This document shows, in pieces, positions 15,301 through 61,139 of a stretch of DNA of 64,000 nt (its first letter is position 1; the number at the start of each line of letters is the position of its first letter). The stretch covers positions 9,155,001-9,219,000 of the forward strand of contig NC_134028.1 of the NCBI RefSeq assembly GCF_964204645.1, in the 5' to 3' direction. This DNA comes from Tubulanus polymorphus. Its lineage: Eukaryota > Nemertea > Palaeonemertea > Tubulaniformes > Tubulanidae. The notes beneath the pieces were generated by a model. That model was not told where the DNA came from and did not search any database. It was given only the letters and a program-made list of their open reading frames with translations. A program made the translations under genes and the position numbers.

Positions 15301-15334
15301 ATTAGGGTTAGGGTTAGGGTTAGGTTTAGGTTTA
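15301..15334 (+). repeat. Short telomere-like TTAGGG array
   Basis: Three perfect TTAGGG hexamers are followed by two TTAGGT variants. The sequence lies inside the inverted-repeat element at 14870-15944. It matches the ancestral metazoan telomere repeat. Confidence 0.85.
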
Positions 15335-15760: not shown

Positions 15761-16397
15761 AATGTAAGGTGTTGCGTGTCATCAGCTGTAGAATATGGAT
15801 CCCCAATCAAGGATCTATTTTCATGGAACTTCTTTTAGTTCCATATTACTACGCTTTTATATTTCAGTTTGCGCATTTATTCCCCGATTTACTCCAAAAG
15901 TATCTCTACACGTTGCACTATAATGTCGTATATCGGACTTGGGCCGACCTTTGAATTCCAGTCAAAAGTCGTGGACTGGTTACCGGCACCAATTAAATCA
16001 ACTCAATATTTTTTCGTCGCCGTTTTGCCTCAAGAATGTTCGTTTTACACATGATTATCGTATTGTGGTAGCGAATTGCGTGAGGCGACTCGGGAATAAA
16101 AATCGGCAATCTGATTTGATTTTATTGTTCGACGTCGTGTCACACGGTTGATACGTATATTCCAAGATTTCATTACAAATATTGGCATCCTAAAAGTGGC
16201 ATCAATGTCGTTATGCCAAATGGTGTACATGTAGACCGAACAAATTAAGGAGGCAATTGATTAAGACAATTAAGACAATTGAATTAAATTGTTTTTGGAA
16301 TGGATTCAAACATAATTGAATTATTGACCTGCTTGTACAATCTAAAATTCTAACTTACAGAAAATCGAATAATAATGGCTTTTCTTGAGGAGTTCAC

Positions 16398-16802
16398 TAT
16401 GGTGGCTGATTCGGGCCATGTAATAAAAAAAATCACAAACGTTACAAATTTTTTTTGCAAACGCTTTAAAGTCGTTTTATTGCGCAATAAAATGAAAATT
16501 ACCACGTTAAAACGAGAAATTACCGCGATAAAACAAGAAAAAGTCGTTTTATTGCGCAATAAAACGAGAAAAAGTCGTTTTATCGCGCGATAAAACGAAC
16601 TTTTTGTTTTATTGCCACGTTAAAACGAAAAATAGCGCGATAAAACGAAAATTACAGCGTTAAAACGAGAACAAGTCGTTTTATTGCGCGATAAAACGAC
16701 TTTTTCTCGTTTCATCGCGCAATAAAACGACTTTTAGGCGTCTGTAAAAAAAAATTTGCACCATTTGTGATTTTTTTTACATGGCCTGAATCAGCCACCA
16801 TA
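16398..16802. mobile_element. 405-bp palindromic MITE (element A of the TATGGTGGCTGAT family)
   Basis: The two ends are inverted repeats of about 80 bp beginning TATGGTGGCTGATTCGGGCC (right end one mismatch, TTCAGGCC), followed by an A-rich block and ATCACAAA. Flanks are GTTCAC (16392-16397) and GTTTAC (16803-16808), which could be a 6-bp target duplication with one change. The interior is built of modules such as GTTTTATCGCGCGATAAAAC and its variants, so the whole unit can fold back on itself. No coding capacity. Confidence 0.8.
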
Positions 16803-17144
16803 GTTTACCCCAAGATTTACTGTAGTTTTCAATATGACAGCTTCGCCTCTTTCCCAATCGCTTGCAACATTGTTGGGTACAATTCATCGATCCATGACAA
16901 GAGTACGGTGTAAATTAGCTAGAGATTGTCTATTCATTTCCAGGTCGCTTCATGACCGAGTCCGGTAGGTGGTAATAATGACAAAGGTTAATATGCCAGG
17001 TATTTTACCTCTGGCATTATTACGTACCTCGATTTACCGAGTCCACGTGCTTCAAATTCTACATCACAATCCCACTTCATACATTTAGGTTTGAGAAATT
17101 CGTCAAATTGTTTATCAACTACATGGATTTACAATTATTTTCAG

Positions 17145-19098
17145 GGAGCAGATGCGTTCACAGAAGATCAGATCGAAGGTACGTTCACAAACATCTGAAT
17201 TACACCATTTCATTCGTTCAGAATATGTAACAACGCTACATCTGTTCAGGGGCATCAATAAGATTGTTTTCTTTTAAGTGGGATCAAAGCTAATACAAGC
17301 GGAACTATATATGTCATACTTTGCACCGTATCCACCAAGCGCCGAAGGCAAACGATCATTTCTGAATCCTTGAAATTGCTTGTACGCCCTTATACATAGT
17401 CTTGATTTTTGAAATTCGAAGCTGAAGGGGAGCGTTTTCTGGAAATCTTAAGGCAATATTCATGTAATGCGAGAAATGTGATGTGAGAAAAGAAAATTTG
17501 TAACTTAAAAAAATCTGGAACCTGGATTTTAGAAAGGGGATCGTCGGCACCTTCGACCCCTTTTGGTGACGCCCATGCATCGTTTCCATATCGCAAAATT
17601 GCACTTGATTTGGTATATTACGTGATATTATTTGTTAGCATTTAGAGAAGCATTTAAATTGTTTGATAAAGACGGCGATGGAACGATTACGACTGAGGAA
17701 CTAAAGCAAGTTATGAGTTCGATAGGTCGCAATCCAACTAAACAGGAACTCACGGATATGATCAGTGAAGTTGACGAGGATGGTAAGTATAGCAACTATC
17801 GAAATCTCCACGATGATTCAATGATGTTTTTACACGTTTCAGGTTTCGACCGAGTTCGACTGATCTCTTCGCGTCCTTTTCGAGAGAAAAATACATGCAA
17901 ACGTACACTTTGATAGGATAAAAACCCATTACGTACAAATTAAACGAATTTGATATCGATAAAATCGAAACTTACACTTTGTATCTATTCATTTCTTGAA
18001 AAGGACGCGAAGAGATAAGTCGAAATCGATCGAAACGTAAATCGTGTACAGGAAACAATTTATTCATTAGAAGATTTTGATAGTAACATTTTTACTACTA
18101 TTCTACTATCTGGATACTCATCCGATATTATATCAGTATCGATTTACCTGTATATCTAACCTGACTTCATACGCCTTGACTCATTCACCCTATCATTATC
18201 ACTATTGTTATTATCATTGATGATATTATTATAATCATTATTATTATGGTTATTGATATCATTATTCAATTCTCTGCACTTGCACATCTTCGTATACTCT
18301 AAGCATCGGGGTGCAGTGACCTGTACAGCCCCAAGACTCTCACTGTTACCTTCATTCAACTTTACTTCATTTATCTATGCTGTCAAAATTCATGAAAATG
18401 TAAGTCAAATGAAAAATAAGTCATTATCATTTATTATTATGAAGCTGGTATACGTACACAATTATAGCGAAAGCTCGTGCGTCTAATAAAAAAGTTAACC
18501 TTTAAAGTACTGCTCGTCTCTTTGTATTTATTCATGCACCTCTGTGAACTTCATTCATTTTGTGAAGTGGTATGGAAAACAACTATTTCACGAAAATAAA
18601 TTGTTTCGTTTGCAGGTAATGGTCAGATAGAATTTGACGAGTTCGTGGATTTGATGGCTAAAGGAGGAGCGGGAAGTGGGGATCCCGAGGATGAACTAAA
18701 AGCAGCGTTTAGGGTGTTTGATAAAGATGGCGATGGCGTCATATCGAAAGATGAACTAAAACAGGTCAGATTCAGTCCTAGCCGAAAATTTTTCAAATCA
18801 TTCAGGGGTAACCACTTGGAGCTCTTGTGCAATATTTACAATATTCTCTCTACCCCTTTAATGTTTAATAGGTGATGGCAAGTTTAGGGGAACAGCTGAG
18901 CGAAGATGAAATAAAAGAAATGATTAGCGAAGCTGACATCGATGGTGACGGACAAATAAATTACGACGGTAATTTCCATTTTTCACAGTAAAGGCATTCA
19001 TGCTTAACACGCGACTGCATTTATTGAGATTCAACTAATAGAATTTCTTATTGCTGCCATATCTTGTAGAGTTTGTATTCATGATGATGAGTAAGTGA
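17145..19098 (+). CDS. Calmodulin-like EF-hand protein (first exon not located)
   Basis: Exons: 17145-17178, 17639-17782, 18616-18764, 18872-18968, 19070-19098. GT-AG borders and phases match throughout, ending MMMSK then TGA. The product has four canonical EF-hand loops: [36 protein letters not shown] and [12 protein letters not shown]. All have the Asp/Asn and Glu ligands for calcium. Length is about 150 aa including the missing Met, as in calmodulin. It differs from true calmodulin in the N-terminus ([17 protein letters not shown]), the central linker ([18 protein letters not shown]) and many helix positions, so it is a paralogue. Known role of the family: Ca2+ sensor that binds amphipathic helices of target proteins. 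As in many calmodulin genes, the ATG is on a separate small exon. A weak candidate is ATGACAAAG|GT at 16978. Confidence 0.9.
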
Positions 19099-19680
19099 AG
19101 AAGCACACAAACGAGGACCGGCTGTACATAGTGAAATTAGATAGACCCTAAACGGACTAAAAGTCCATACGATCAAGCGGAGGCTGAAAATGTGTTCTTT
19201 CGATTGAAATTCTGGACATGGATCTCTCTTGCTTGTAGCAGGGCTAATGAAAACTGTTGCTTATTGAAAGTCGGAACGGGGGAGATGTGGTAGAGATTGC
19301 GCTCGGAGGAAATCTCTCTTAATGCCTCTTTATCAACAAATTTGAGGTCGAATCAATAAATCATTAAAAGCAAGCATTAGAAATGCAAACATCGTTAAAC
19401 CTTCCGTGTGATGTGTTTTGTTTTCTTTCCTTATGATATCGTCGTTCTGTGCTGCGATGCAGTCTTTGATTAACGGCATACCTATTTCGAAAATTGATTA
19501 CACGCAGCAAATTGACCAGAAGGGTCGAATAACACATGTTGATTTAGTTAAGATGATCGTTTCTTACGCAAGTATCTCAAGGGGCATTAACGCTTCCATT
19601 ATGTAATTAAGATTTTGTTAATTCTATTGTAAAATGTAACTTAAATTTTCAAATAAAAGTGCTTCATAGAAATAATTTGA
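19099..19680 (+). other. 3' UTR of the calmodulin-like gene
   Basis: Non-coding sequence follows the TGA. Candidate polyadenylation signals AATAAA are at 19355-19360 and 19652-19657. A 62-codon open frame at 19418-19606 has no family features and is probably chance. Confidence 0.5.
19652..19657 (+). terminator. Candidate poly(A) signal AATAAA
   Basis: Canonical hexamer about 550 bp after the calmodulin-like stop codon. An earlier one at 19355 is an alternative. Confidence 0.4.
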
Positions 19681-19904
19681 CAAATCTTGTTTTCGAATTT
19701 GTGACTTAAAGTTCATGCCATCAAAACAAAATATTGTGTTGAAGTTATTTTCAAATGTGATATATTCATAAATATCAAATATGCTACTGGTTCGAATTAG
19801 TTATGCATATATTAAAGTTACATCTGATTAATCACGGAAAGTACAATTTTGATGGATATGCTGCCCCGTCGTGGGATCCTATATCTCATGTGTTTTGATG
19901 GTTA

Positions 19905-19985
19905 TTTAGTACTAAGAGTTTGGGACGGTTTTACTTATCAGGTTCCGTACCAGCGCTGGATACAGCGCTAAATTCTGCTGGATAG
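19905..19985 (+). repeat. Dispersed repeat family R4, copy 2
   Basis: AAGAGTTTGGGACGGTT and GTTCCGTACC match the copy at 14091-14160. Confidence 0.4.
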
Positions 19986-20007
19986 AGTATCAAGAAATTA
20001 GAAAAGG

Positions 20008-20225
20008 TAAATATTGTCTCGGTCTAATTCTAGATCTATCTATAAGCCTTTCGATACACTTGAAACAACATTACTACATGACATGAAATGGTTTTTATCA
20101 TATCTCAAAAATAGGCAAATGTTTGTTGAACGTCTAAGTTCTCGTACCAAACAATCAAGTGTTGGTGTACCTCAAGATTTAGTGCTAAGACCCCATTTGT
20201 TCTCAGTTGTATGTTCTTTGTCATG
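20008..20225 (+). pseudogene. Reverse transcriptase relic of a non-LTR retrotransposon
   Basis: Translation gives a decayed version of the RT core. A broken LDLS...FDTL motif comes first, then WFLSYLKNRQMFVE. GVPQDLVLRPHLF follows, corresponding to the conserved GVPQGSVLGPLLF of LINE RTs. The first motif is frame-shifted and key glycines are lost. Only about 70 codons remain. Confidence 0.75.
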
Positions 20226-21340
20226 ATCTTAACAGATGGTACCAATTTGTTGACTATCAAATTAAATACAATATTCAAACCCCAATTTAACATACTATCA
20301 TTTTTTAAACACAGTTTAAATTTATACACCCTTATTTTCACTTTCACCGGTATTTCCTTATAAACAACCCCTTTTTTAATCATCTCGGGGATTTCCGCCC
20401 GTGATTGGAATCAATTCTATAACCATTTTCCCGTGAAATTAAGGCATATGTTGAAGGAAGTGGTCCGCCCGGGTTTTAGTCGTGGAAAATGACATTAAAA
20501 TGAACTCGTAGTAGTTGCCATAGCAATGATGTTGATGGTAATGCAGCAAAATTACCTGATAATTGGATTCTGGTACTAGATATCAAGGGCTACGTTCAGA
20601 AAAAAGAAGATTCACAAAGTCTTTCCACTCAGTCGAAAAGTCAATTGCTTAGGCTCGTATAGACCAGACTAATTCGCATGTAACGCCCGCGCGAAATGTT
20701 GAAATATAGACATTTAACGATATGAACGTTCATTACCATTTCATGTTTCCTGTTTTTTTTCGAATGAATCAAGATTACAGGCGTAAGTTATTAATTCTTA
20801 TCGAACGTGTCAGATAGTACTAATCATTTATTATATGAATTAATACAGCCCCGTTTGACACAAATGGGTCTTTAATGAATGTTATTATAGACATAATCTC
20901 CGATCCTCAAATAATCCTAGGCAATTTTAACTTAGTAACTCCTCGACTGGTTGAACGTCATATGTTTTATATAGGCTAATTCATGCAAATATGGTACGAC
21001 TTTTCAAATCTCAATTATTCAAACGACTGTTCAAAACTTTGCAATTATGGTTACAATATTATTATCCTCTACTTATTGCCGTATTTACAATTCATCTAGA
21101 AGTCTTTACAAATCTGCCACCAGACGCATAATAACATCAGATGATGTAATGCCCTGATAAGGTCACCCGACGGAAATCACCCTTGCTTGCTTGCCAGGGT
21201 TTGGTTGCCTCCCGGCGAAGCTGAATAGATCAGCTTTAAACGGGTTTTTATACTCCCGAATCTTAATACGTTTATACTTGTATTATCATGCGAGCTATCA
21301 AATACAATATATAGTTTAGTGTAGTTTCCAATCATAATCA
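20226..21340. other. Intergenic, no feature seen
   Basis: AT-rich sequence without credible ORFs or tandem structure. It may contain more decayed LINE sequence downstream of the RT relic. Confidence 0.3.
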
Positions 21341-21349
21341 TGGGGTACC

Positions 21350-21600
21350 AGCAGTGCTACTGTGGCAATCGAGGATTCCACGGTACGGCAGGCGAGGATC
21401 TACAAGGTTCCACATTTCAATTAAATCTGAATGAACTTATCTCTGAAATGAATCAATTATCTATGAAAGCTATCCGATATCCGACTAGAAGAATGAAAGT
21501 ATTGTATATTTGGTGGGTACTGTCAGTATACATGGATTGGGAGATCAAAAAATTCCAGTTCAAAGTTCATTGAAAATTAACTTATTTTGACAACGTAAGG
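21350..21600 (+). repeat. Dispersed repeat family R1, copy 2
   Basis: Matches 57-330 block by block (CTGTGGCAATCGAGGATT, GGCAGGCGAGGATCT, TTCAAAGTTCATTGAAAAT). The 77-codon open frame inside it is not supported as a gene. Confidence 0.5.
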
Positions 21601-21807
21601 TTTAGGTTTAGGTTTATTTATTTCGCTCAAACCAAACATTGGTATATAGAGGTTACAAGAATTTGTACAATAAAATTTATAATTTACAAAACTTAAAAAC
21701 AAGAAAACAGAGATACACATAGAATAGAATAATAATAGAGATAACAGATATGTATACGTGAATTTTACTTAAGTAGCTTGAGACCAGCATTTACAAGCGA
21801 GTTTAAT

Positions 21808-21838
21808 TAGGGTTTTCTGTTATTTCACAGAAAACCCT
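21808..21838. repeat. Perfect short hairpin
   Basis: AGGGTTTTCTGT and ACAGAAAACCCT are separated by six bases. This is probably the terminal or subterminal palindrome of a small DNA element. A short ATT run follows at 21856-21872. Confidence 0.6.
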
Positions 21839-21875
21839 ATTGATATCCGCGTGATTATTATTATTATTATTTTCT

Positions 21876-22802
21876 TCCACACTATTTTTACCAAAAGAAC
21901 ATAGGCTTTGTTACCTTACCATATACAATCCATATAATATCGTTCAGCTCAATGAGATCTACAAATAGCCCGCGTGTTTTTTCACGAATCATCGTTACAA
22001 AAGCGCTGTCGGGCTGTAAACATCGAAAATTTAGCCCCATTCAATGGGGCGACATGTTTTTCGAGTCGTCATCCCGAAATCAACCCGCAGGCCGACTGTC
22101 ACTTCGATTATCAATTCAAGTATAAATGAACTAATTTATTGCCGCAGACTTCACATTCAGTCGCGGTCTTCAAACAGTGATTTTAACAATAGCCCATTTT
22201 CCTCATCAAATCATATTACCGATACACTGGAAATTTACTACTTTAGATTTTAAAAGCACTGTCGAGCCGTTAACATCGACGAATCGACGTGTGTTACTAC
22301 ATCGACGTTCCGGGGATGAGCTGCGAGTTTCTCCTCATCATGAGAATCGAATCGAGTACAAATTAATTTATTACTACCAGTGATTTGGCTGCGGGTTTCA
22401 AGGAGTTAGTTTAACAATACCTATTTTTCTTTACCGAATTAACCGTGTATTTACTAAGATAAATCTTTAGTGTACCGGGGAATCGTAGGCCTAAACTAAA
22501 CAGGCCGAAGAGATATGGCGGAGAAAAGCTGTTATGTCGACGAGGTATCAAAATAAAAGAATATATTACTTTATTCGGCCGCGGGCTTCAACCATTTATC
22601 AATACTCTATATTTCCTACACTACATACCGATCATTGTCAAATGCACAAGGTATTTACTAAATACAAGTATATAACACACTCCTATCCGTATGCTGGACT
22701 CACACTTGACATTCGGAGTAAGCGTTCGCTGTGGGGGAAAGGAGATCGTTCGCTGTGTCGCTTGAAGTGTTTATCGAGTTTTACGCGACCTTAAGGCTTT
22801 AG
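21876..22802. other. Intergenic, no gene seen
   Basis: Contains short hairpins, for example AGCCCCATTCAATGGGGC near 22032. Small open frames have no recognisable features. Confidence 0.3.
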
Positions 22803-22907
22803 TATGGTGGCTGATAAGATAAAAAAAACACGAATATGCAAATGAGGGCGACATAACGACAAAACGACAAAACTAAAATAACGCGAGAAAACAATGATTT
22901 TGATTTT

Positions 22908-23935
22908 GTCGCCCGCGACAATTCATTATTTTAGTTTTGTCACACGCGACAATTCAATATTTTGGTTTTATCGCCCGCGACAATTCATTATTTTGGTTTT
23001 ATCGCTTGCGACAATTCATTATTTTGGTTTTGTCGCCCGCGAAAATTCAATATTTTGGTTTTATCGCCCACGACAATTCACTACTTTGGTTTTATCGCCA
23101 GCGACAATTCATTATTTTGGTTTTGTCGCCCGCAACAATTCTTCTTTTTGGTTTTGTCGCCCGCGACAATTCATTATTTTGGTTTTATATTTTGTTTTTG
23201 TCGCCCGCGACAATTTTTTTTTGGTTTTCTCGCCCGCGACAATTCAATATTTTGGTTTTATCGCCTGCGACAATTCAATATTTTGGTTTTATCGCCCGCG
23301 ATAATTCATTATTTTGGTTTTGTCGCCCGAGACAATTCATTATTTTGGTTTTATCACCGGCGACAATTCATTATTATGGTTTTATCGCCGGCGACAATTC
23401 ATTATTTTGGTTTTGTCGCCCGCGACAATTCACCATTTTGGTTTTGTCACCCACGACAATTCATTATTTTGGTTTTATCGCCCGCGACAATTCATTATTT
23501 TGGTTTTATCGCCCGCGACAATTCATTAGTTTGGTTTTGTCGCCCGCGACAATTCAATATTTTGGTTATATCGCCCACGACAATTCATTACTTTGGTTTT
23601 ATCTCCAGCGACAATTCATTATTTTGGTTTTGTCGCCCGCGACAATTCTTCTTTTGGTTTTGACGCCCGCGACAATTCATCATTTTGGTTTTATATTTTG
23701 TTTTTGTTGCCCGCGACAATTTTTTTTGTGGTTTTGTCGCCCGCGACAATTCATTATTTTGGTTTTATCGCCCACGACAATTCAATATTTTGGTTTTATC
23801 GCCCACGATAATTCATTATTTTGGTTTTATTGCCCGCGACAATTCATTATTTTGGTTTTGTTGCACGAGACAATTCATTATTTTGGTTTTATCGCCCGCG
23901 ACAATTCATTATTTTGGTTTTGTCGCCCGAAGAAA
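22908..23935 (+). repeat. 31-bp tandem array, about 33 units
   Basis: The typical unit is TCGCCCGCGACAATTCATTA followed by TTTTGGTTTTA or G. Each unit contains the palindrome TTGTCGC-CC-GCGACAA. Units differ by point changes, with occasional larger indels (near 23180-23220 and 23690-23730). The array is open in all three plus-strand frames only because the unit lacks stop codons. The long open frames are not genes. Confidence 0.95.
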
Positions 23936-25061
23936 ATTTTGAAGACGCTTTGATCTTTCGTTTATATTTGAATCTACCAAAGGCCCATCAGCATAAGAAA
24001 ATTGGGTCGATCTGACTCATGATGGCCGTCCTATGACCTTTTTAGTGCCCAAAAATGTCAATTTTGGCCAGAATTCTAGGTCCTGTAGCTTCCTTCTGGT
24101 TTGCCATTTCTCATTGCAATTGCTGATGGATATTCTTTAGAGAGGGATGTTATATACCTGGGACAGGTATTTTTGATCAGCCAATTATGACGCAATTGGC
24201 AGCCATCTTGGTGTCATCAGTACTCATTCGTAGGTGGGAAAAAGTTTTTCCACAATTAATTGATACCTAAGCATATTGTGTTACTATATTCAATTGAAAA
24301 GTTGTAGCCCATAACGTGTTCCATGATTTTGGTGAGTTTCAAGGTCATTGGTTTTTGTATGTGGCCATCAGGGGGCGTTGAATAATACAATAACTTAGTA
24401 TCGCTATATTATATTTGTACCAAGGCATATTTTGTTACCATGATCAATGGCAAAGTTGTAGTTCATGACATCGTCTTTGATTGTGGTGAGTTTTTAAGGA
24501 CATTAGTTATTCCATATAGTCACCAGGGGGCGTTGAATAGTAGAAAAGCTTAGTTTTTCCTTATTAGATTGGTACCTAGGCATAGTTTGTTACCATGATC
24601 CATTGCAAAGTTGTAGTTCATGACATCGTCTATGATTGTGGTGAGTTTTTAAGGACATTAGTTATTCCATATAGTCACCAGGGGCGTTGAATAGTAGAAT
24701 GACTTAGTATTTCCTTATTAGATTGGTACCTAGGCATATTTTGTTACTATGATCAATTGCAAAGTTGTATTTCATGACATGTACTACGATTGTGGTGAGT
24801 TTTAAGGTCATTGGGTTTTGCATATGGTCACCAGGGGGCGTTGAATAGTAGAATAACTTAGTAGGTCCATATTAAATTGGTAACGAGGCATATTTTGTTA
24901 TCACAATCAATTACAAAATCATAGCTGCTCATATGTTCTTTGATTGTGGTGGGTTTCAAGGTCATTGGTTTTTGTATATGGTCACTAGAGGGCGTTATGT
25001 ATTGAAATTGTTAGATTGTTGAGCATTTGAAACCACTGCACAAGTCCCTGGACCCCTAGTT
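23936..25061. repeat. Insertion in the 31-bp array: R2 repeat plus ~155-bp tandem repeats
   Basis: Positions 24060-24260 match the R2 family found at 35230, 51125, 63242 and 63745 (GGTCCTGTAGCTTCCTTC; CAGCCATCTTGGTGTCATCA). From about 24240 to 25010 there are four to five tandem units of about 145-165 bp. They are marked by CACCAGGGGGCGTTGAATAG at roughly 24371, 24536, 24681, 24834 and 24990. There is no coding content. Confidence 0.75.
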
Positions 25062-25365
25062 TGGTTTTGTCGCCCGCGACAATTCATTATTTTGGTTTTG
25101 TCGCACGCAACAATTCAATAATTTGTTTTTGTCGTCCGCGACAATTCATTATTTTGGTTTTATCGCCTGCAACAATTCAATATTTTGGTTTTAACGCCCA
25201 CGACAATTCATTATTGTGGTTTTATCGCCCGCGACAATTCATTATTTTGGTTTTATCGCCCGCGACAATTCATTATTTTTTCGTTTGTCGTCCGTGACAA
25301 TTCAATATTTTGGTTTTGTCACCCGCGACAATTCATAATATTGGTTTTGTCGCCCGTGGTTTTGT
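25062..25365 (+). repeat. 31-bp tandem array, second block, about 10 units
   Basis: Same unit as 22908-23935, more diverged at its right edge (TCGTCCGTGACAA; final unit broken). Confidence 0.92.
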
Positions 25366-25477
25366 CGGAACATTAAGTTTTTGGTCGAACAGTGTGTTAA
25401 GGTTGTTTTGGAAATTTACTCGGTCTGGTATATTTTGGATTACTGTGTATGTCATTTGTCAGGACATTTAACAGAAG

Positions 25478-25705
25478 ACGACTTAAGATACTACCTTGCG
25501 TGACTCCACTAGTTAGACCGTCTCATTCCAAGATGAGGCGTTCCGTTGATTTCGGTTACAAGTTTCCGTTCAGAGATAACTGCTGTGCCATTTGGGCGAC
25601 CTATCATTGATACTGTTTCCTAATAGCCTGTTCAGTAATGGCTGATGTTGAGCCTTATCAAATGCTTTGTTGAAATCCACCGTTGAACAGGATTCTAAGA
25701 CTGTG
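25478..25705 (-). pseudogene. Reverse transcriptase relic (minus strand)
   Basis: Read from 25705 leftwards it gives VDFNKAFDKAQHQPLLNRLL, then SYLSERK, then GVTQGSILSRLLLNVLTNDI. These are the conserved LINE motifs around the first RT aspartate and the GVPQGS(I/V)LGPLLF region. Stop codons and frameshifts lie between them, so it is dead. Confidence 0.8.
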
Positions 25706-25861
25706 CTGAAAACCCGTTATCGCTGCTTTGCAGCTATATTTAATATATTGTTATTTACAGCATTAAGTAATTGTGACATTTTAAAAAGTGTTGGGTCTAT
25801 TTACATAAAAAGGTGTTAGGAAAGCTCTTCGTATATTGTTTAGTTTGGAACATTCAAAAAG

Positions 25862-26098
25862 AAAATGGAATTCATCGCCGATTTTGTTAAGACTAACGAT
25901 TTCGTCAAATTGGCGATCTCCGCGATTAGATTTTCTAGTACATCCAGTTTATCGAGCTTCTTTAGTTGGCTAAATATTTCCGAAATCGCCGAATGTACAT
26001 CCAACTCGTCTTGCGATTGATTTTTATTCTTGGCTCGCAGCTTTGTATCTGGTGAAGACGTAATAGATTTCGTGGTTGGTGCATTGTATCTGTAGTTG
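25862..26098 (-). pseudogene. Coiled-coil ORF1-like fragment
   Basis: The minus frame stays open for about 78 codons and reads in part LDVHSAISEIFSQLKKLDKL, with heptad-like leucines, resembling the coiled coil of LINE ORF1 proteins. It lies upstream, in transcription order, of the RT relic at 25478-25705. Both may come from one truncated element. Assignment to ORF1 is inference. Confidence 0.45.
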
Positions 26099-26114
26099 TC
26101 GTGTTGAAATATTG

Positions 26115-26165
26115 AGAGTACTGCTCGTCACGCCATCTGGTGGGATAGCTGAATTCGCAGGTTCC
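26115..26165 (+). repeat. Dispersed repeat family R1, short copy
   Basis: CTCGTCACGCCATCTGGTGG matches the right end of the copy at 57-330. Confidence 0.45.
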
Positions 26166-26356
26166 CCGTTGATCTATTTAAGATCTTAATTGAACTGTTG
26201 AATGCCAACGGAATAACTTCAAGCGAACCTGGACGAACTTCGGTTCATCGGAGTTAGTCGACTTTTGCGAACTAAACGAATGTCAGTTATTAGTCGGAAA
26301 TATAGTTAGCCCGGAAAAAGTGTGAACGCGGCGCGGAAGATCGGACCCGTTACAAG

Positions 26357-26425
26357 ATGGCAGATTTCAAATGCGTTGAAACCGAAAATGCGTTCGATTA
26401 TCAGCTCCCACCACTAGTCGATTAC
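26357..26425 (+). CDS. Possible first coding exon (23 codons), orphan
   Basis: ACAAGATGG at 26352-26360 is a good start context. The frame runs MADFKCVETENAFDYQ and then LPPLVDY up to a candidate donor at 26426 (GATTAC|GTATGA). If not spliced, it ends at TGA 26429-26431. The sequence composition (fairly GC-rich, balanced codons) differs from its AT-rich surroundings. No partner exon was found downstream, so it may be a relic or chance. Confidence 0.25.
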
Positions 26426-26523
26426 GTATGAAAACCGAAGGGGGATCCTCAATCAGTATAACCGTTTGAGGGGTGAATATAGTCCAATTGAACGCAAGAT
26501 CTGGGGCCGGTTCATAGACTGGT

Positions 26524-26591
26524 ATTATCTTAAACCCGGGCACTAACTCAATTTATTTTCGATTGAGTTAACCCCTACGGGTTAAGATAAT
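26524..26591. repeat. 68-nt imperfect hairpin
   Basis: ATTATCTTAA(A)CCCG pairs with CGGGTTAAGATAAT, and inside it TAACTCAAT pairs with ATTGAGTTA. This is most likely the core of a small palindromic element, though a structured RNA cannot be excluded. Confidence 0.5.
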
Positions 26592-26963
26592 GATATTCAT
26601 CATAAACGGAAAATTCTATCGAATATATAATAACTGACCGTTAGCGAAAATCGATATCTCTAGACACTCAGCAGAAAATGGAGAGGAATTTCGGCGGAAT
26701 ACATTTCGGTTACGTTACCACTTGTCAAATATTTGAATAATGTTACTATGGACATTCGACGGAGATTTAAAATGCGAACCCTTTTCGGACAAACCTTTAA
26801 ACCATTCCCTGAAAACGCTCGAAATTTGCAAGAAATTATCCTCTCTGTCAGGTACCAGGTGAAAACTTGCGTAGTTCAGATGTATATTAGTGACTGTCAT
26901 ATTCGGAGAGGATTATAGTCGACTTGTCGCGATTAGTATCGATAATATATGACTAGTAACAAC

Positions 26964-27042
26964 TATATAAACAACAGATTTCGGGTCGTCTGCTATTCAA
27001 GTTTCACGCGTCGAAAAGCGTTCACCTGAATTCAAAATGAAG
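26964..27042 (+). promoter_or_regulatory. Candidate core promoter plus two-codon first exon
   Basis: TATATAA at 26964-26970 is followed about 30 bp later by a pyrimidine-adenine-rich start region (CTATTCAAG). A 40-nt leader follows, then AAAATGAAG|GTAAGA with ATG at 27037-27039 and donor GT at 27043. A TATA box, a short leader and a start exon coding only Met-Lys is a layout seen in genes for abundant secreted proteins. No downstream coding exon was found before the repeats at 27.6 kb. Confidence 0.35.
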
Positions 27043-27640
27043 GTAAGAAAAACAGAATAACAGATTGCACTTTATGGTACCAGTTGGAATTCGACCGCTA
27101 GCAGTCTACCGACTACTGTCTGTCACACCACCTCTCCGTGCGACGTTTTGGTCCGTAATTTCGTTAATAATGTACCGATTTACCTTATTCATACATCAAT
27201 GTCTTCAGTAAAAGATTTGCATTCAGAAATATATCATTTTCTTCGTCAAATCTGTCTTTGTTGTTGTTTATCGACAAATATTTACGCAGCATACGACCGC
27301 ATAATGCTTCAGCGCTGATGTCGCGAGCGCAGTTCCGGCTCACTGCGCACGCGCATAATCCTACATAGCAACGGCCGATAGGTGGCGGAGAGCGCCGATT
27401 ACAAAAGAGTGCAGAAAAGAAATAGAAAATGGGTAAAACGGCGACTAATGTCTATTTCAACCTGACTTGAGAGCATCCCGAGTGGCCAAGCTCGCTCATT
27501 TTTGGTAGTACATAGCAGAGAAAGGTCTTAGTAGGACCAGAAAGGTCAGGCAGTCGACCTAAATCATCATTTTTTAATCCATTTGAAACTGTATTGAAGG
27601 ATATCCAAAAAGTCTTCACTGAAAGGGGTTCATGAGAGAA
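27043..27640. other. Intergenic or intronic, no coding exon seen
   Basis: Locally GC-richer around 27290-27380 (GCGAGCGCAG, GCGCACGCGC). No exon with recognisable protein content. Confidence 0.3.
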
Positions 27641-27644
27641 AAGA

Positions 27645-27747
27645 GACTCCATGATTTGAAAGTTTAACAATATGTTTCCATGCCTACCAACTGAAGTTTG
27701 GTATGTAGGCATGGAAACATATTGTTAAACTTTCAAATCATGGAGTC
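27645..27747. repeat. Perfect 43-bp inverted repeat with 17-nt loop
   Basis: The arms are 27645-27687 and 27705-27747, with no mismatch over 43 bp (starting GACTCCATGATTTGAAAG). The loop is 27688-27704. It is either the core of a recently inserted foldback element or a hairpin-RNA source. Confidence 0.9.
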
Positions 27748-27974
27748 ACTTCTCTTCATTTAATTTTTTTTATTAACTTGACGATCTCAATACATAAAAA
27801 TGCTAGACTCAATAGTGCCTTACATATTCATTTCATTTCCTGCGTCGACGACGTGTTTGTAACGAGTAACGAATGACAAAATTATCTTGGTTCCAAATCG
27901 CTGGGCTAACGTAAAGTTAAATATCAAACCTCGTATTAATTATGCGTGATTTTTCACCTGTATCATTCCAGAAT

Positions 27975-28490
27975 AAAGAAGTTTCCAGTTTCTAGGCGCC
28001 ATTTTGTGGCGGTCACTCGAGGTCCCCCTTGTTGCGATAATTTGCGCTCATTTTTAAAACATAAGTTTTGATTGAATATCATATAGTTCTGCAGTCCCTT
28101 GCTCAACGAAATTAATTTATACACCATTTTAAAGGAAATGAAATGCAGATATTTGCTGGCGATTCTTGGAATTTTTGAACGCAACAATTGAGAACAGTGA
28201 CGATGTGAAACCAAGGACCGCATATCTTAACCACGCGTAAAAGAAATCGCAATATTTATTAATTTTGAAATATCTAATATCTCTTGAAGCTATATTTCCA
28301 ATTTTCACAGAGGTTAAAGTGGGTTATTTGCAGTGTTGCCTGCGTTGAACTTTTGTATCTTTCCTGACGACTGATCTGTACCTGCTTGAGTTTGAGATTA
28401 CGCGCAAAAGGGGTCTCCAACTGCGCACCGCCATTTCACTGAACATTGAGAGGCGCCACAAAATGGCGCCTAGAAACTGGAAACTTCTTT
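27975..28490. mobile_element. 516-bp MITE with perfect 37-bp terminal inverted repeats
   Basis: The left end 27975-28011 (AAAGAAGTTTCCAGTTTCTA, then GGCGCCATTTTGTGGCG) is the exact reverse complement of 28454-28490. The inner part of each terminal repeat is itself nearly palindromic. The 86-codon open frame inside has no protein character. Target-site duplications are not obvious, so the superfamily is unassigned. Confidence 0.85.
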
Positions 28491-28835
28491 GGGTTCACGA
28501 GGTAGTTAGAAGACAAACCAGACCACACTTTCCGTCATCGTCGCAGTGTCAATGCCCGTGTGCATGTGGATCCAATACACAGCGAAGTAAAGAGTGGATA
28601 AAAGGGCATTTGTCAAGATCGGGATAAATCTGTTCCATCTGTTATTGGCACATGTTGCGACGATGGTTTATCATCATACTGCTCATTGACGGGCATTTAT
28701 CATTTGATTAGCTTAGATTGAAAAAATAAAAATTATTGAATGCAATACATCGTCGGTTTCAAACTGTATCAAAGTGTGCCTAATATTCGTTTTTATGATT
28801 ATCTAATATTAATAACCTCTATCACAAGAGTGATA

Positions 28836-28898
28836 TAAAGACATGTCGTTCAAGCATATGTATTTGAAATATGAAATTGCTTGAAGGACAGGTCTTTA
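28836..28898. ncRNA. miRNA-precursor-like hairpin
   Basis: The 63-nt unit folds into a stem of about 20 bp with two single mismatches. TAAAGAC-A-TGTC-G-TTCAAGCA on the left arm pairs with TGCTTGAA-G-GACA-G-GTCTTTA on the right. A short inner stem and loop follow (CATAT / ATATG). Size, spaced mismatches and AT-rich flanks resemble a pre-miRNA. I do not recognise either arm as a known miRNA, and the strand cannot be decided. Confidence 0.35.
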
Positions 28899-29977
28899 GA
28901 TAATTTATTTTTCATAATTTGTTAAGCTACCGCGTCAAGCCCCTTTTGGTAGGCTCACATAAACCTCGCATACCTACAACCTAACGCACCCTAGTGGACA
29001 TCATCATTCGTATTAAACAGAGTACGATCCTCGGATACAACGGTCACACATGACCATCATAGGCACAAACCAACGAGTAAGCCATGGGCGCAATATGAAC
29101 ACTTCATATTGAGGGAGACCAAAACCTGAAGCAGTACAGTATTCAAAGGTCAGTGAGATGACGGAAAGAATGGTGCGACGTGACTTCAGAATGAAATAGC
29201 AAGACTATAAATGCCTTAAGGTGAAACGGCATGAGATGAGGTCGCGAGTTATGACTTCAAAATAGAATGGCGTGAGATGACCTCAAAAGTTTGCCCCTAA
29301 AGATGAAAGTTACGAACTGTTTTGATCTTTATTAACAAATTCGAATTGTCTATCAAATCCGTTCTTCTAAGAATACCGCAAAAAATATCGACACCGAAAA
29401 TTCTTCACAAAATCATCCTAAGTATCAATAAATTGATATGAACTAGGAATCCAGATACCTCGGTAGCGTTACCCAGAGCTGCAGGTCAATTTCAGTTTTA
29501 AGGATCACTAGTATTTTGTATGAAGTACAATTCACCTAGTATTCAACTCTTCATCTTACCTAATTCACACCTAACAACACAAACTGTCGAAAATATTCAA
29601 CTGAGTTCAATAATAGATAAATTATTAGATAACCACACTGACCAGGCAAACTGTGTGACTCTATGTGTCACTACAGAGCTGCGGTGTGGTGACTAGGTTG
29701 ACATGCTAATGGTCACTGGTTAGGTATAATCAAGGCTATGGTACAGCTATTAAAGTGGGCCAGGTTTATGCTCTTCGCAGGAAAATTTCTGATTCTAGTC
29801 AGATTAACTGTAGGTACAATTAATTCTGATTTCTTAAATCTCTGATTCAAATAACGTTATCATATCGGCACAGTAGTTCTTGCGTGTCTCCGATATGCTG
29901 CAATTCCTACAATAAATGCTTAGTAAAATCAATCCAAATTTATTGAGTGAACGCCAACGATTCACGCTGTGACGGCT
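28899..29977. other. Intergenic, no gene seen
   Basis: Contains short repeated phrases such as GGCATGAGATGAGGTC/GGCGTGAGATGACCTC near 29230-29285. No ORF of note. Confidence 0.3.
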
Positions 29978-29983
29978 AATATC

Positions 29984-31582
29984 TATGGTGGCTGATTCGG
30001 GCCAAGTTAAAAAGAATTTCGTGCGATAATCCGCGCAAAAAATATATTGCTTCGTTTCTGCGTCCGTTTCTGCGCGCCGCAGATACGTTTCTTCACGACG
30101 ATTTCTCGTTTTGGCGACCCGCCGAAATGAACTTCGTTTCTTCGCCGCGAAGAAACGAATTTTACCGCGCAGAAACGCTCCAAAATGCGCGCAGAAACGA
30201 ACCTTTTTCTTCACGCGTTTCTTCACGGTGATTTCTTGTTTCGGCGCCCCGCCGAAACGAACTTCGTTTCTTCGCGGCGAAGAAACGAATTTTACCGCGC
30301 AGAAACGCTCCAAAACGAGCGCAGAAACGAACCTTCGTTTCTGCGCCCGTTTCTGCGCGTTTCTTCACGGTGATTTCTTGTTTTGGCGCCCCGCCGAACT
30401 TCGTTTCTTCGCCCGTTTCTTCGCCGCGAAGAAACGAATTTTACCGCGCAGAAACGCGCAAAAACGAGCGTAGAAACGAATTTTCGTTTTAGCGCCCGTT
30501 TTGGCGCGTGTCTGCGCGGTAAAATTCGTTTCGGTGCGGTAACATTGCTGTTTTACGACGCGATGCAGTTCCGAGGCCAAATACGAAAATAATCAAAAAT
30601 CATCGAATACTTCTTAGATCAGCTTTCTCACTAACAATTGATTAACTAATGAGAAAAGTTGGTTCGAATTTGATTGAATTGAAGCGGGAAATTGAAGCAA
30701 GGAAACCCAGTGCCACTAGCGATCCTAGTGGATCATCGCTTGCCACAGCAGCGATGCCGGTATCCCATTGATTGAGTTTAGTTTTTTCCAATTAAACTTC
30801 CTTTAATCGATGGTTTATTGATTCTCTGCTGAAGCCAGTTAAATGAATCATTTGCAAATGAACAAATTCAAATGCATTTTATTCCTACTAATTGACGTAG
30901 AGGCGGCAACTAGTACGTTGAAATATTTGAGTTAACAATTACTAAAATTGAAGATAATTTTACTTTACTAATCTTTCAATTTATTGTCAAAAATATTTGG
31001 CGATAATATTCGATTTCGGGAACAGATACGCCCAGCTTGGTAAAGTAAAGGGCACTTTAGTAGGCTGCGATTAGAATGAATTATTGAACTTTGGAAATAA
31101 CCTTACAACGTCACGTGCCGTTGTGATCTACTTATCGAGAATACACGTGCCATCGGGACTGCACCACGTGGTAAAACAGAAATATTAACGCGCAGAAACG
31201 AAACGGACGAAGAAACGAAGTTCGTTTCGGCGGGTCGCTGACACGAGAGATCACCGCGAAGAAACGCGCCAAAACGGGCGCATAAACAAAGGTTCGTTTC
31301 TGCGCTAGTTTTGGTGCGTTTCTGCGCTGTAGAATTCGTTTCTTCGCGGCGAAGAAACGGGCGAAGAAACGAAGTTCGTTTCGGCGGGTCGCCAAAACGA
31401 GAAATCACCGCGGAGAAACGCGCAGAAACGGGTGAAGGTTGGTTTCTGCGCCCGCTTTGGTGCGTTTCTGCGCGGTAAATTTTGTTTCTTCGGCTCGCAG
31501 AAACGAAGCAATACATTTTTTCCGCGGCATATTGCGCGGAATTTTTTTTTTGTTTCTAACTTGGCCCGAATCAGCCACCATA
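29984..31582. mobile_element. 1.6-kb palindromic element (element C of the TATGGTGGCTGAT family)
   Basis: Both ends carry TATGGTGGCTGATTCGGGCC, then AAGTTA, in inverted orientation. Flanks are AATATC on both sides (29978-29983 and 31583-31588), a likely 6-bp target duplication. From each end inwards the DNA is built of modules such as CGTTTCTTCGCGGCGAAGAA, TTACCGCGCAGAAACG and their complements. About 550-600 bp of ordinary AT-rich sequence lies in the middle (30590-31150). Open frames on both strands are by-products of the stop-poor modules. Confidence 0.82.
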
Positions 31583-31620
31583 AATATCAGCGCGGAAGAA
31601 TACTATGTTGAACACATCTT

Positions 31621-35628: not shown

Positions 35629-36663
35629 CTACATTCGCTTTTCTAGCCGATGACAGCTCAAAAACCAAATAAGTGTTTTTCCGAAACCTTTTCGGATACC
35701 CAAATATACGAATAGATTTATCATCGAATTGATGGCGTGTAATAACTGCGCAGAATGATACGGCCGATACCATTTTTTGCTATTGTTTTCCGGTAAAAGC
35801 GCCGGCAAAAACGTGTTTATAACACCCATCATGTATTCAACCATAAATATAACGTTTAGGACTAGTATTGTCATTGTTATTTGTCGACCTTGTTTGCTTT
35901 CGGTCGAATTCGATTCATCGTCCTCGTCGATTTGTTGAAGTTTCCGGCGCGTGCGAGCCGCGTCCCGCACCAATAAATACATGTGACCGTTACACGCTAA
36001 AACAAAGGTACCTGGGATAAACAGAAGCACAACTTTGGCAAATACAAAATCGTAATACATTGCATATCGTTTATTTAGAAGTAGTAATTTTCTAAGATGC
36101 ACATATGCGCATGGGTGATTGGGCATCACCACGTAAGACTCTTTATCCCAAATAGTCGGTATCTCGAAGATAAAAGTAAGAATCCAAATGGCTATCGAAA
36201 CGCGTAATGCATTTTGAATTGTGCATATTTGTCTCGCAGAAAGGGGAAATCGAATCGCTATATAGCGGTCTATACCCAACGCGAAAAGCAGCCACGGACT
36301 TGTAGTCTTGGTCATCTGAAATATGAAATCAACATAAATATAAACGTGACGGAAATACTGTTGATAAATGCGATTATACCGAACGTGTTCGAACGGGTAG
36401 TCCCTCGAAAGAATCATCAAATCGCGCCCGAACATTACTGCAGTTAAACAATTCATCATATCGGCAATAGCGAGCACTTCCAAGTATAAAATACTGCTTC
36501 CTCGAACTTTCATCAGGCGGAGAACTATGAATGCGAGACAGTTGGCGACTCCGCCGATGCTGTAAAGGATCACACGAATTAACGTCATGACGGTAGCGTA
36601 CGTGTACGTACCTTCGGCACCGTCGCATGATTTACCGCAACATATAACCGTTTCATTTGCCAT
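35629..36663 (-). CDS. Class A (rhodopsin-like) orphan GPCR, type A, copy 1 (344 aa)
   Basis: Intronless ORF with seven hydrophobic segments at residues ~24-50, 58-78, 107-133, 152-170, 203-232, 261-287 and 301-322. Landmarks: LAIAD in TM2; IDRYIAI at the end of TM3 (D132-R133-Y134); NLFVY at 316-320 in place of NPxxY (Pro replaced by Leu). TM6 lacks the usual CWxP proline. The basic third loop, with an acidic QQIDEDDESNSTE stretch, would face the cytoplasm. Expected to be a plasma-membrane receptor coupling to G proteins; the ligand cannot be read from sequence. It is part of a lineage-specific pair, 98% identical to 51484-52518. A TATTATAA box lies about 35 bp before the ATG. Confidence 0.92.
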   Translation of the reverse strand: MANETVICCGKSCDGAEGTYTYATVMTLIRVILYSIGGVANCLAFIVLRLMKVRGSSILYLEVLAIADMMNCLTAVMFGRDLMILSRDYPFEHVRYNRIYQQYFRHVYIYVDFIFQMTKTTSPWLLFALGIDRYIAIRFPLSARQICTIQNALRVSIAIWILTFIFEIPTIWDKESYVVMPNHPCAYVHLRKLLLLNKRYAMYYDFVFAKVVLLFIPGTFVLACNGHMYLLVRDAARTRRKLQQIDEDDESNSTESKQGRQITMTILVLNVIFMVEYMMGVINTFLPALLPENNSKKWYRPYHSAQLLHAINSMINLFVYLGIRKGFGKTLIWFLSCHRLEKRM

Positions 36664-37620
36664 CGCTACGTATTGTTAGCTTTCATCGCAACAAAAAAAT
36701 CAAGTTATAATACCCGCACATAATGCCGCACATCTTTTCCGACGCTTGGTTTGCCTTCGTACGAAACATTTTTACGTAGCGTTTTCTAATAACAATCTTC
36801 GCTCGGTGTCTGTTGGCATCCCTTCCTAGTCTGTAATTTTCCTCACGTCTAGAGGTATAATTTCTATCCCGATACTCTTAGCTCAGCAAAGGTTGTAATT
36901 CAAAGAACAGCGCACATTCATGGAAACTAACGTACGTATGAGATTCTTTTATTCGAATGCGCTCTGTTCACTACACTAGCTCATGAAAGCTATGAAAGAC
37001 TTACAAATTCTAATCCGAGATAAGAGAAATGAGTGTAGGTCATTTATATTCTATTTTCCCACGCAGTAGAACACATAAATCTCATAACAAGTTTGAAATG
37101 GATAAGAATGTCACCACGTCCCCTAATGAAACCGCTTATTTTTTGATTCTATATCAATAGGTCTTAACAGTGATAGAAATAATACACGTGTTTGCAGTTT
37201 ACCCACGGTCCAAGCAGCAACCTTGCAGAATTAAGTATTTCAGCTGAAATGTATCTGCCAATTCTATCGAAAGTTCATTAATGACTTCGTTGAATTGCTT
37301 TATCTTTTTGTGCTGTAATATAATGTAGTAAATATGTAGTAAATGATTTAATGTGCCGAAAATTGGAAAATTGCATCATGGACTATAAATTTCGTCTCGG
37401 ATTTCCCTGAATGATTTCTCTGAATGATTTCCAAAGCAAAATCCAACCAAAGGCATGAGTAATTGTATATATGTCGTTTCAGATCAAAGGTCAAAAGGTC
37501 GAGCTCATAAAAAAGAAAAAAAGAAATCCTCGCATGCTCGAATTTATTTCTTATTTCTTAATCACTCAACGTTTCAACCTTTAATCTGAAACAATTAACA
37601 ATATTGATATATATGAACAT
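36664..37620. other. Upstream region of GPCR A copy 1
   Basis: Non-coding, but strongly conserved with 52519-53475, as expected from the recent duplication. It should hold the receptor promoter. No gene. Confidence 0.5.
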
Positions 37621-42824: not shown

Positions 42825-45800
42825 TTACGCGTATTTCAGTAATATTTGTTTTTTAAATTGGAATGATAGTGAATTTATGCTGGTGGATGAACGGATAACA
42901 TTTGAAGTATTTCGCCAAATATTAGGCATCTGAGCTAAGAAGGATTTACTGTATAATTTGGATTTATGGAAAGCAGCTCTCGCATAGTTAAACTGTCCGG
43001 TATTGTGGGAGTGGAAGTTAAAATTATGATGAAATAAATTTAGCAGTGGAGATGGGAGGGAGTTATGAGTGTATTGAAATCCTAATTTGATAATTTCCAG
43101 TTGAATCAGATCATGGAATTTAAGTATTTTATATTTTTTGAAAATAGGACCTGTTGGGGCGTTATAAGCTGAGTTTTCGATGAGTCTTAGTGCTTTTTTC
43201 TGAATAGTAAAGAGACTTTTGGATTGACTAGATGATAACAATGGCCCCCACGCAATAAGTGCATACGTTAGGTGACTTTGGATATAGATTATATATAACA
43301 GTTTTTTAGTCCAGCAGGGAATGAGATTTTTTAAGCTTCTTAAAAGATATAAATTTTTGTTTAATTTGTTAATTAATTGTTTTACGTGAGGTTCCCAATT
43401 TAGACGATCATCAATTAGCAAACCAAGAAATTTAGTAGAGTTTACTATTTCAAGAGAGTGTTTTCCAAATACTATTTTGTATAATGATTTGTCAATGGTT
43501 TTATCTTTTGAAAAAAGTAAGCACTTTGTCTTATCTATGTTAAGAGTGAGTTTATTTGAGTTAAACCAGTCAATGTTAATATTGAGATCAATTTTAGCAT
43601 TATGCAATAGTAAATTCATATGTTTGTTGGAAATAAGTAAGTTAGTATCATCTGCAAAGGAAACAGCTTTAGTGTAGCAGAGGTTGTGATTAAGATCATT
43701 GACATAAATAAGAAAAAGTAAGGGCCCAAGGACCGATCCCTGTGGGACACCAAATGAAACGGTATTATAGGAAGAGTAGGCATTATTGAATTTAACAAAT
43801 ATTTTACGATTGCATAAATATGATTTGAACCAATTATAGGCATGACCTCGAATACCATAGTGGGATAATTTAAATAATAATTTGTTGATATCGAGGGAGT
43901 CAAAAGCCTTAGATAAGTCCAGAAAGAGGCCAAGGGAGTGATCCCCCTTTTCAGGATTTTGTAGTATAGAGCCTGTAAATTCTGTGATTGCGTGAGTAGT
44001 AGAGTGTTTTGGTCTAAATCCATATTGGCTGTTATTCAGTATGTTATGTTTGCATAGAAATTTATAAAGTCTATTGTGAACTAATTTTTCTAGTATTTTC
44101 GACATGACCGGAAGTAATGATATTGGTCGGTAGTTATTAAGGAGCTGTTTGTTTCCATTTTTATATAGAGGAATTACCTGAGAAATTTTCATACTATCTG
44201 GAAATATACCATCCTGAAGGGATTTATTGCAGAGAATTGTCAGAGGATCGATAATATTGGATATAATTAGTTTAAGCATTCTATTATTCAGTAAGTCATT
44301 ACCACCAGTGGTCTTTTTTGGGGCTAGGTTGTTAATAATCCTCAAGATATCCTCCTTGTTGGTTGGATTTAAAATGATTGAGTGGGCATTCCTTGCCCCC
44401 ATGTAAGTTGTAAAATTGTTTTTAGAACTTGGACATTTGTTTGCATAAGAGCTACCAATCGAAGAAAAGAAGTTACAAAATTGTTGGCTTATTGATTTAG
44501 GTTCCTCAACAAGTTTATTATCGATGATGAATTTATTAGGGATCCCCGATTTGTCATTTAATTTACCAGTGGATTGCTTCAAAAATTGCCATAATTTGCG
44601 ACTATTATTGGAAAATAATACAATTTTGTTTGCATAGTACGATTTCTTTTGACGCCTTTTAATGTAATTTAAATTATTTCTGTAAAGAATATAGTTTTTA
44701 TAACGTTGGTCAGATTTGTCCAGATTCAATACTTTTTTATAAAGTTGATCGCATTTCTTAGAGCATTTTAAAATTGATTTAGACATCCATGGTTCGTAAA
44801 TATGAACTTTCTTCTTAACTTCTATTAGTGGGGATACGTTATTTATGATTAAATTTATATGCGACATAATGAAATCGTAACAACCATTACAATCGAGCAG
44901 GTTGACAGGAGTCCAGTCTAGTTGTGAAAGCATACGATTTATCCTATCGATATTCTGGGTATTAAAATTCCGAGTATAATGTTTACTGGTTGTTGAAGGT
45001 TTTCGTTTATAACGCACGGTCACGAGGCATGGTAAATGATCAGACAGGTGTGAAATCAGGATAGCACTTTGATGATCAAGACTCAGCGCCGGAGAGAGAT
45101 ATATATTGTCAATTAACGTGGCTGTCGCGTGTGTTATTCTAGTTGGCCGTAAAATAGTTGGAAAAAGATTATTTGATAAATTGATATCCAAAAATTTGGA
45201 AGTGTTTTTATGATGATTAATGTTCATATAATCTAGATTTTGGTCCATTCCTAATATCATTTCGCACTTTTCATTCTTAATTTTGCGTAATTCAATTTCA
45301 CTAGTTCCTGGGACACGGTAGAGTTCGCCAATGATTGTCCTTTTACTAGATTGAAAAGCCATATCAATTTCAATAAAACAAGATTCGAATTTACCTTCAA
45401 TGAACACTTCTAGATCCGGTCTCTTATTATAGGTTAAGTTATTACTTATATAAATTGCTACTCCTCCACGCTGTTTCAAAACTCTGTGATTCTCTATTAA
45501 TTGATAACCAGGAATTTTGCATAACATTGAATTGTAGTCAGTCAAAAAAGTTTCACATAGCATAATGATGTCAATGGTAACATTTTGGGATTTAAGTTTT
45601 TCAATCAATATTTTGAGTTGGTCAAATTTGTTGTTAAGACTATGTATGTTAAGTTGAATTATATTAAGGTTATTCGTATTCATACTGAAATGGTTTTTTA
45701 ACTCGTGCAATTCGAGGTACGGGCATTGATTACTGAACATTTCCAATTCACTATCATTATCTAATAAATTGTTGAGATGAAAATTTTCATTTTCCTTTAA

Positions 45801-45842: not shown

Positions 45843-46169
45843 GTTTAATTAATTTATACCACGGTCAAATAAGGATTATGAATCAGGGAAAAGAATAAAG
45901 AATAATTATAAAATAAATAAATAAATATAAATATAAATACAATTCCAGAACTTGGATGTATGAGTATAGGTCAGAAATGCATTACTGCTTTATGGACATG
46001 GTTTAAAAGGTACACAATATATTGATCTACGACTGAATGGCCTACTCAGTGGTTTATATAGATACACGCTTTTCGGAACAGTTCATCGTAAAGATCATAA
46101 AGACACTACTCGCTCGTTGATTGTATTGTTTTCTCGAAGTCCGCATAACCACATAAATGAATTTTGATG

Positions 46170-49130: not shown

Positions 49131-49439
49131 GATTCAACCGTGTTAACAGATTCGCTGTCTACTCACATACTGGAATACCGTTAACGTGAAAGAAATCCAC
49201 AAAGATACTGATTAAGCCTTATCACTTTATGATAGCTGTTCGTCATTTGTTACTTTCAGAGTTGATTTTTCATTTAGTTTCACCAATGAAATTGTGAGTT
49301 AAGATAATTTCCGCCCCAACTCATTTTCGTGAAATGATGTTTATCTAGTGTGTAAAATACGTCTCAGTTGAGTCGGAATTAAGTAGTTTATCATATGTTT
49401 AAAGTATATTCACGCTGGTATAACGAGATGATTTTATTA

Positions 49440-60842: not shown

Positions 60843-61139
60843 GATTCAACCGTGTTAACAGATTCGCTGTCTACTCACATACTGGAATACTGTTAACGTG
60901 AAAGAAATCCACAAAGATACTGATTAAGCCTTATCACTTTATGATAGCTGTTCGTCATTTGTTACTTTCAGAGTTGATTTTTAATTTAGTTTCACCAATG
61001 AAATTGTGAGTTCAGATGATTTTCGCCCCAACTCATTTTCGTGAAATGATGTTTATTTAGTGTGTAAAATACGTCTCAGTTGAGTCGGAAATAAGCAGTT
61101 TATCATATGTTTAAAGTATATTCACGCTGGTATAACGAG

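Follow-up and report, generated by a model that had tools for sequence, protein, structure and literature searches.

Introduction

Transposons of the IS3EU type are described as having TA..TA termini (TAYGG..CCRTA in fungi), usually 6-bp target duplications and an IS3-like transposase, and fungal members are reported to carry accessory genes (PMC10045372, PMC12730594), among them the TET/JBP and alpha-kinase genes of the elements presented in PMC12730594. Additionally, two oyster satellites have been related to IS3EU (PMC8268682). This study examined a 64,000-nucleotide stretch of the genome of the nemertean Tubulanus polymorphus (NC_134028.1, positions 9,155,001 to 9,219,000; hereafter the window), in which a sequence-only reading had recognised three stretches, here called elements 1, 2 and 3, as one transposon family with differing palindromic fillings. 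The filling was found to be subterminal arms made of arrays of a 10-bp half-site, GTTTnnnCGC, with a three-base middle word. As in IS3EU and in GingerRoot (known here through PMC10045372 only), the characteristic termini of this family occur together with 6-bp duplications and an IS3-like transposase; as those elements are described in the sources cited, the present family differs from them in its subfamily-specific half-site arrays and in a gene with a HECT domain. The words "subterminal", "HECT" and "ubiquitin" are absent from PMC12730594 according to a word search, and searches of open-licence papers turned up neither comparable subfamily words in IS3EU elements nor a HECT companion gene in transposons.

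The arrangement of subterminal arrays itself is already known from other superfamilies. CACTA elements (En/Spm, Tgmt*) are described as having a short conserved end and subterminal direct and inverted repeats that are capable of forming stem-loops, differ between the subfamilies of one species and are the presumed targets of a DNA-binding protein that the element encodes (PMC2613891). The constant end with subfamily-varying subterminal repeats is shared with the present family, whereas CACTA ends, a 3-bp duplication and another motif contrast with TATGG ends, 6-bp duplications and no exact 3-bp duplication among 39 elements here. Galileo and other Foldback-like elements likewise have inverted arms that are long and repetitive within, and these hold numerous transposase binding sites in tandem repeats (PMC3688188); this likeness in the arms stands beside a difference in the enzyme, as Galileo has a P-superfamily transposase with a THAP domain and the gene-carrying copy found in this study (L068) matches only rva_4, HTH_21 and rve_3.

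A transposon family with a common end

Elements 1 and 3 are real non-autonomous DNA transposon copies with 20-bp inverted ends and 6-bp target duplications, bounded as the sequence-only reading had proposed (no strand is assigned to their features). Element 1 (16398-16802, 405 bp, subfamily A) has its ends at 16398-16417 and 16783-16802, the right one with one mismatch, and lies between GTTCAC (16392-16397) and GTTTAC (16803-16808), which differ at one position; its array of GTTTTATCGC-type half-sites spans 16474-16735, and the words of the whole element are TAT (11), TAA (3) and CAT (1). Element 3 (29984-31582, 1,599 bp, subfamily D) has two exact ends (29984-30003 and 31563-31582) and is flanked by AATATC on both sides (29978-29983 and 31583-31588). 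Its left arm array (30086-30520) is dominated by CTG and CTT, and the right arm array (31208-31508) is inverted relative to it, with 16 CTG, 13 CTT, 6 TGG and 5 CGG words in the whole element. Between the arms lies a core without modules (30541-31190, approximate limits set by eye), most of which is matched at 90% by C3:12070377-12071072. Half-sites of the form GTTTnnn[CT]G number 15 in the 405 bp of element 1, 47 in the 1599 bp of element 3 and 36 in the 2568 bp of element 2, against 83 in the remaining 59,428 bp of the window, a difference in density that confirms the presence of self-complementary modules in all three stretches. A search of the window against Rfam gave no match.

Across the 267.8 Mb of the genome that was searched (77 contigs), the exact 20-bp end occurs 314 times (150 forward and 164 reverse) and the TAAGGGCC/TTAGGGCC end variant 482 times (256 and 226), with no copy of the reversed control in either case. 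The 20-bp end is thus far beyond chance, and the proposal of one transposon family with a common end is upheld; the end had no match in the viral_contigs or genome_contigs collections. Target duplications were scored in 39 distinct end-to-end elements shorter than 8 kb, taken from the window and from fetched loci, pairs being discarded if an end had more than 3 mismatches or if flanks were missing. The loci were not fetched at random: they are the top matches to elements 1 and 3, together with pairs among the first 100 of the 314 listed ends. A 6-bp duplication is exact in 21 of the 39 and present with at most one mismatch in 25, compared with a mean of 1.6 and a maximum of 6 in 1000 shuffles of the flanks, and exact flank matches at lengths of 3, 4, 5, 7, 8, 9 and 10 bp number 0, 0, 0, 1, 0, 0 and 0. 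The earlier expectation that 6-bp duplications would limit the transposase class was therefore borne out, the class being IS3EU-like.

Transposase and HECT gene

A gene-carrying member, which the sequence-only reading had suggested looking for, was found in L068 (C2:6483115-6490467, 7,353 bp), a copy with perfect ends, an exact GGATTG duplication and an intron-split transposase. Its joined transposase exons match PF24764 (rva_4) at 1.2e-33, rve_3 at 0.16 and HTH_21, the IS3-type helix-turn-helix, at 4.4e-4 (20.9 bits, under the curated cut-off of 28.1), and the D, D and E residues of the transposase were recognised by eye in the exons. No zinc-binding integrase family is among these three Pfam matches; the HHCC zinc motif, whose absence ahead of the core is a trait of IS3EU, was not specifically searched for. 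The arms of L068 hold 64 copies of GTTTTTGCGC in total and are 87% alike over 663 bp. Ordinary interiors, which the earlier reading had set against itself, are thus found in part, as L068 has genes inside while module arrays stay in both of its arms. The termini TATGG..CCATA of element 1, element 3 and L068 have the TA..TA of IS3EU, and together with the 6-bp duplications and the IS3-like transposase they would place the family in or beside IS3EU.

Relatives of the L068 transposase exons detected by tblastn adjoin module arrays in L089 (subfamily A), L023, L025, L026 and L033 (D) and L090 (G), and another lies in L091, a G-like stretch without half-sites; in the copies on C2, C12 and C1, PF24764 matched a single exon each, weakly and below the cut-off of the model. 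The PF24764 search, unlike one with the IS481 transposase model NF033577, reached transposase loci of the TATGG-end family. NF033577 gave 67 matches and was set aside as a candidate: the one locus opened, L088, lacks a TATGG end and was read by eye as a Gypsy-type retroelement with a reverse-transcriptase-like frame beside an integrase frame, and none of the matches on C1-C3 lies near the listed 20-bp ends when compared by eye.

On the strand opposite the transposase, L068 also contains a HECT-domain stretch (1.7e-13). With the L068 HECT exons as query, matches were obtained inside three large D elements, C2:9566513-9579165, C6:17977599-17991693 (exact GATTCG duplication) and C8:2430985-2451337 (no duplication). 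This query had no match in two G elements (C1:4406522-4416409 and C1:21785906-21794736) or next to the A copy of C4, and none was listed for C12:9297947, a D-type locus with a weak transposase match beside the array at C12:9299357. Because the G and A copies lack a HECT match, the gene is shown for the subfamily C copy and three D copies rather than for the whole clade, and it would extend the accessory genes of IS3EU-type elements by a ubiquitin ligase. Further PF24764 matches at C10:4849757-4851934 and C10:5248532-5250895 lie less than 2 kb from weak HECT matches (E 0.008), so that the pairing of transposase and HECT may extend past the clade.

Half-site arrays and subfamily words

Subfamilies were defined from the sequence immediately internal to the end, by rules drawn up once the elements had been seen, and words were counted in the remainder of each element. 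The dominant word is TAT in 17 of 18 elements of subfamily A (none in one), TCT in 9 of 10 of B (none in one), TTG in both elements of C, TTG in five and CTG in two of the seven D elements, and TGG in one of the two G elements, the other having none. When 10-mers were counted without a preset motif, the commonest one was the half-site or part of its palindrome in all five subfamilies (A, B, C, D and G); in element 2 it was not. The genome holds 564 sites for GTTTNNNCGCGNNNAAAC as against 26 for its reversed control, and nearly all of the matches listed (50 sites on C1) carry the TGG word.

A 31-bp frame, GGTTTTnTCG..CGAnAATTC, is common to subfamily B and element 2. In B the variable position is C on both arms in 19 of 20 modules, whereas in element 2, 20 of 23 right arms have G, and the left arms have A (14), G (8) or C (1); with the frame constant and the arm letters different, the word has changed on both arms throughout the array.

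Neighbouring half-sites occur in facing, back-to-back and tandem arrangements, and in subfamily A tandem pairs are as common as facing ones. The two arms of a palindrome match in 28 of 90 cases in subfamily A (shuffled mean 29.9) and in 60 of 84 in D (shuffled 45.4), array duplication being strong in D; the test covers A and D, since its pattern picked up too few palindromes in subfamilies B and G, and none at all in C or element 2. The unit of repetition looks to be the 10-bp half-site and not the palindrome. The amplification of palindromes that the sequence-only reading had suggested consequently finds no support in subfamily A and may apply in D. As a separate observation, a higher period of 154-155 bp is seen in B, C and D arrays (L068, L037 and L079), and the central repeat of element 2 (24243-24996), though unrelated, has it too.

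Element 2

Element 2 (22803-25370) is not an independent transposon and consists of an old end embedded in a larger high-copy repeat, so that the claim of three elements fails at this point. The end, TATGGTGGCTGATAAG (22803-22818, forward strand), is that of a subfamily-G-like element. Only the left 13-bp match, at 22803, is present; searches allowing up to 2 mismatches in 13 bp or up to 3 in 16 bp revealed no right end. Of 840 candidate copies of its first 138 bp, 40 were scored, all with at least 96% identity. The 60-bp left flank is identical in six of seven sampled genome copies, the seventh sharing its last 19 bp, and it differs at 2 of 60 positions in two further copies inside L092 on C4; because this flank is common to the sampled copies, position 22803 is no fresh insertion boundary. 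The first 16 bp are nevertheless those of the subfamily G copy L090, with TATGCAAATGAGGGCGAC versus TATGTAAATGAGGGCGCC further in, and the end is still homologous to the transposon family of elements 1 and 3.

On the forward strand, the interior holds an array of 31-bp modules, GGTTTT(G/A)TCGCCCGCGACAATTC, at 22897-23929, a 154-bp tandem repeat at 24243-24996 and a second stretch of the 31-bp array at 25060-25356. The 154-bp repeat recurs as the core of L083, an element of subfamily B (85% over 786 bp). The interiors of the three elements are accordingly not unrelated, as had been claimed, since their modules share GTTT...CGC and element 2 shares its central repeat with L083; the module types do differ.

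The repeat that encloses the element 2 array was also seen as a 2,029-bp tandem unit in L092 (C4:15545150-15547650), with a zinc-finger-like frame recognised by eye, and recurs at steps of about 4.7-6.0 kb in C2:10635367-10663745.

Interpretation of the arrays

Elements 1 and 3 are probably internally deleted members of an IS3EU-type family whose half-site arrays would be binding sites for an element-encoded protein, with a specificity that has shifted between subfamilies. The 20-bp end would be the cutting site, and the protein predicted to bind the arrays, most likely the helix-turn-helix part of the transposase, would bring the two element ends together. The arrays may have grown through tandem duplication, the word shifting together with the specificity of the protein when subfamilies split. 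Non-autonomous copies would retain hardly more than their arms, since these must be recognised, and would therefore look hyper-palindromic. With its invariant end, half-sites repeated through both arms, phasing on the helix and a word that goes with the subfamily, the anatomy matches the subterminal binding arrays of CACTA elements (PMC2613891) and Galileo (PMC3688188), which serve as precedents. With the exception of subfamily G, half-sites lie mostly one to three helical turns apart. Among same-strand spacings of up to 65 bp, those within 1.5 bp of whole 10.5-bp turns (expectation one in three, for whole numbers) make up 182/203 in A, 25/28 in B, 68/69 in C, 272/350 in D and 26/29 in element 2, counts that are inflated because the arrays are duplicated and the spacings are non-independent. 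This inflation weighs against the binding-site reading, as do the 5/11 in phase in subfamily G and the 40/73 obtained when each distinct spacing is counted once. On the same side stand the stop inside the exon match in each of L089, L090 and L091, the failure to find a transposase for subfamily B, with none of the 70 PF24764 matches near the 100 B ends when compared by eye, and the absence of the half-site from 3 of the 39 elements (one each of A, B and G). Four or more words within one subfamily D array belong here as well, and such mixed arrays mean that a strict one-word-one-protein code is not general.

A rather unlikely alternative to binding by an element protein is that the arrays are functionless, satellite-like expansions, products of the amplification of palindromes by slippage and fold-back copying, with each array kept uniform by concerted evolution. 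The tandem arrays of B, C and D with their higher periods, and the above-shuffled matching of the D arms, agree with such a process, and stem-loop amplification of tandem repeats within miniature inverted-repeat transposable elements (MITEs) has been proposed (PMC8268682); against it, the outer GTTT and CGC are constant across subfamilies while the middle word varies, covariation of the arms is missing in subfamily A, and the transposase genes of L068 are also flanked by module arms. The same arm data bear on an improbable explanation in which the arms are kept for their structure, as a hairpin or cruciform acting in transposition or in escape from silencing: the arms are long inverted repeats, covary in D, and fold strongly in element 1 (-126.9 kcal/mol as single-stranded DNA against a shuffled mean of -52.5, z -19), but long inverted arms must give such a fold whatever their role, the arms of A palindromes match no better than shuffled ones, and many half-sites stand in tandem. 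Very improbable, finally, is that the half-sites serve a host factor, such as one of E2F type, which the transposon exploits for timing or expression. The E2F consensus is TTTSSCGC, which the TGG word (GTTTTGGCGC) fits and the TAT, TCT and TTG words do not, and a single host factor would not explain words that track the transposon subfamily within one host genome.

Building on the binding-site reading, we tentatively consider as possible a word code in which sister IS3EU families share the cutting end and are insulated by the three-base word in helically phased arrays, each transposase reading its own word, the mixed D arrays fitting several transposases and HECT being a second gene of some of these transposons. 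How sister transposons within a genome evade one another's transposase, or profit from it, can be asked here: with at least five subfamilies having one end and different words, cross-recognition is directly testable.

Other features of the window

Outside the three elements, two pairs of near-identical receptor-like frames (GPCR-like by eye), 35629-36675 with 51484-52530 and 48177-49133 with 60006-60845, suggest that a segment longer than 10 kb was duplicated recently. A short element candidate at 27975-28490 has 37-bp perfect inverted repeats 442 bp apart, and an open frame of 1007 amino acids on the minus strand (42825-45848) was recognised by eye as having a LINE-type endonuclease and reverse transcriptase. 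A short interstitial, telomere-like run of 5.5 TTAGGG copies lies at 15302-15334.

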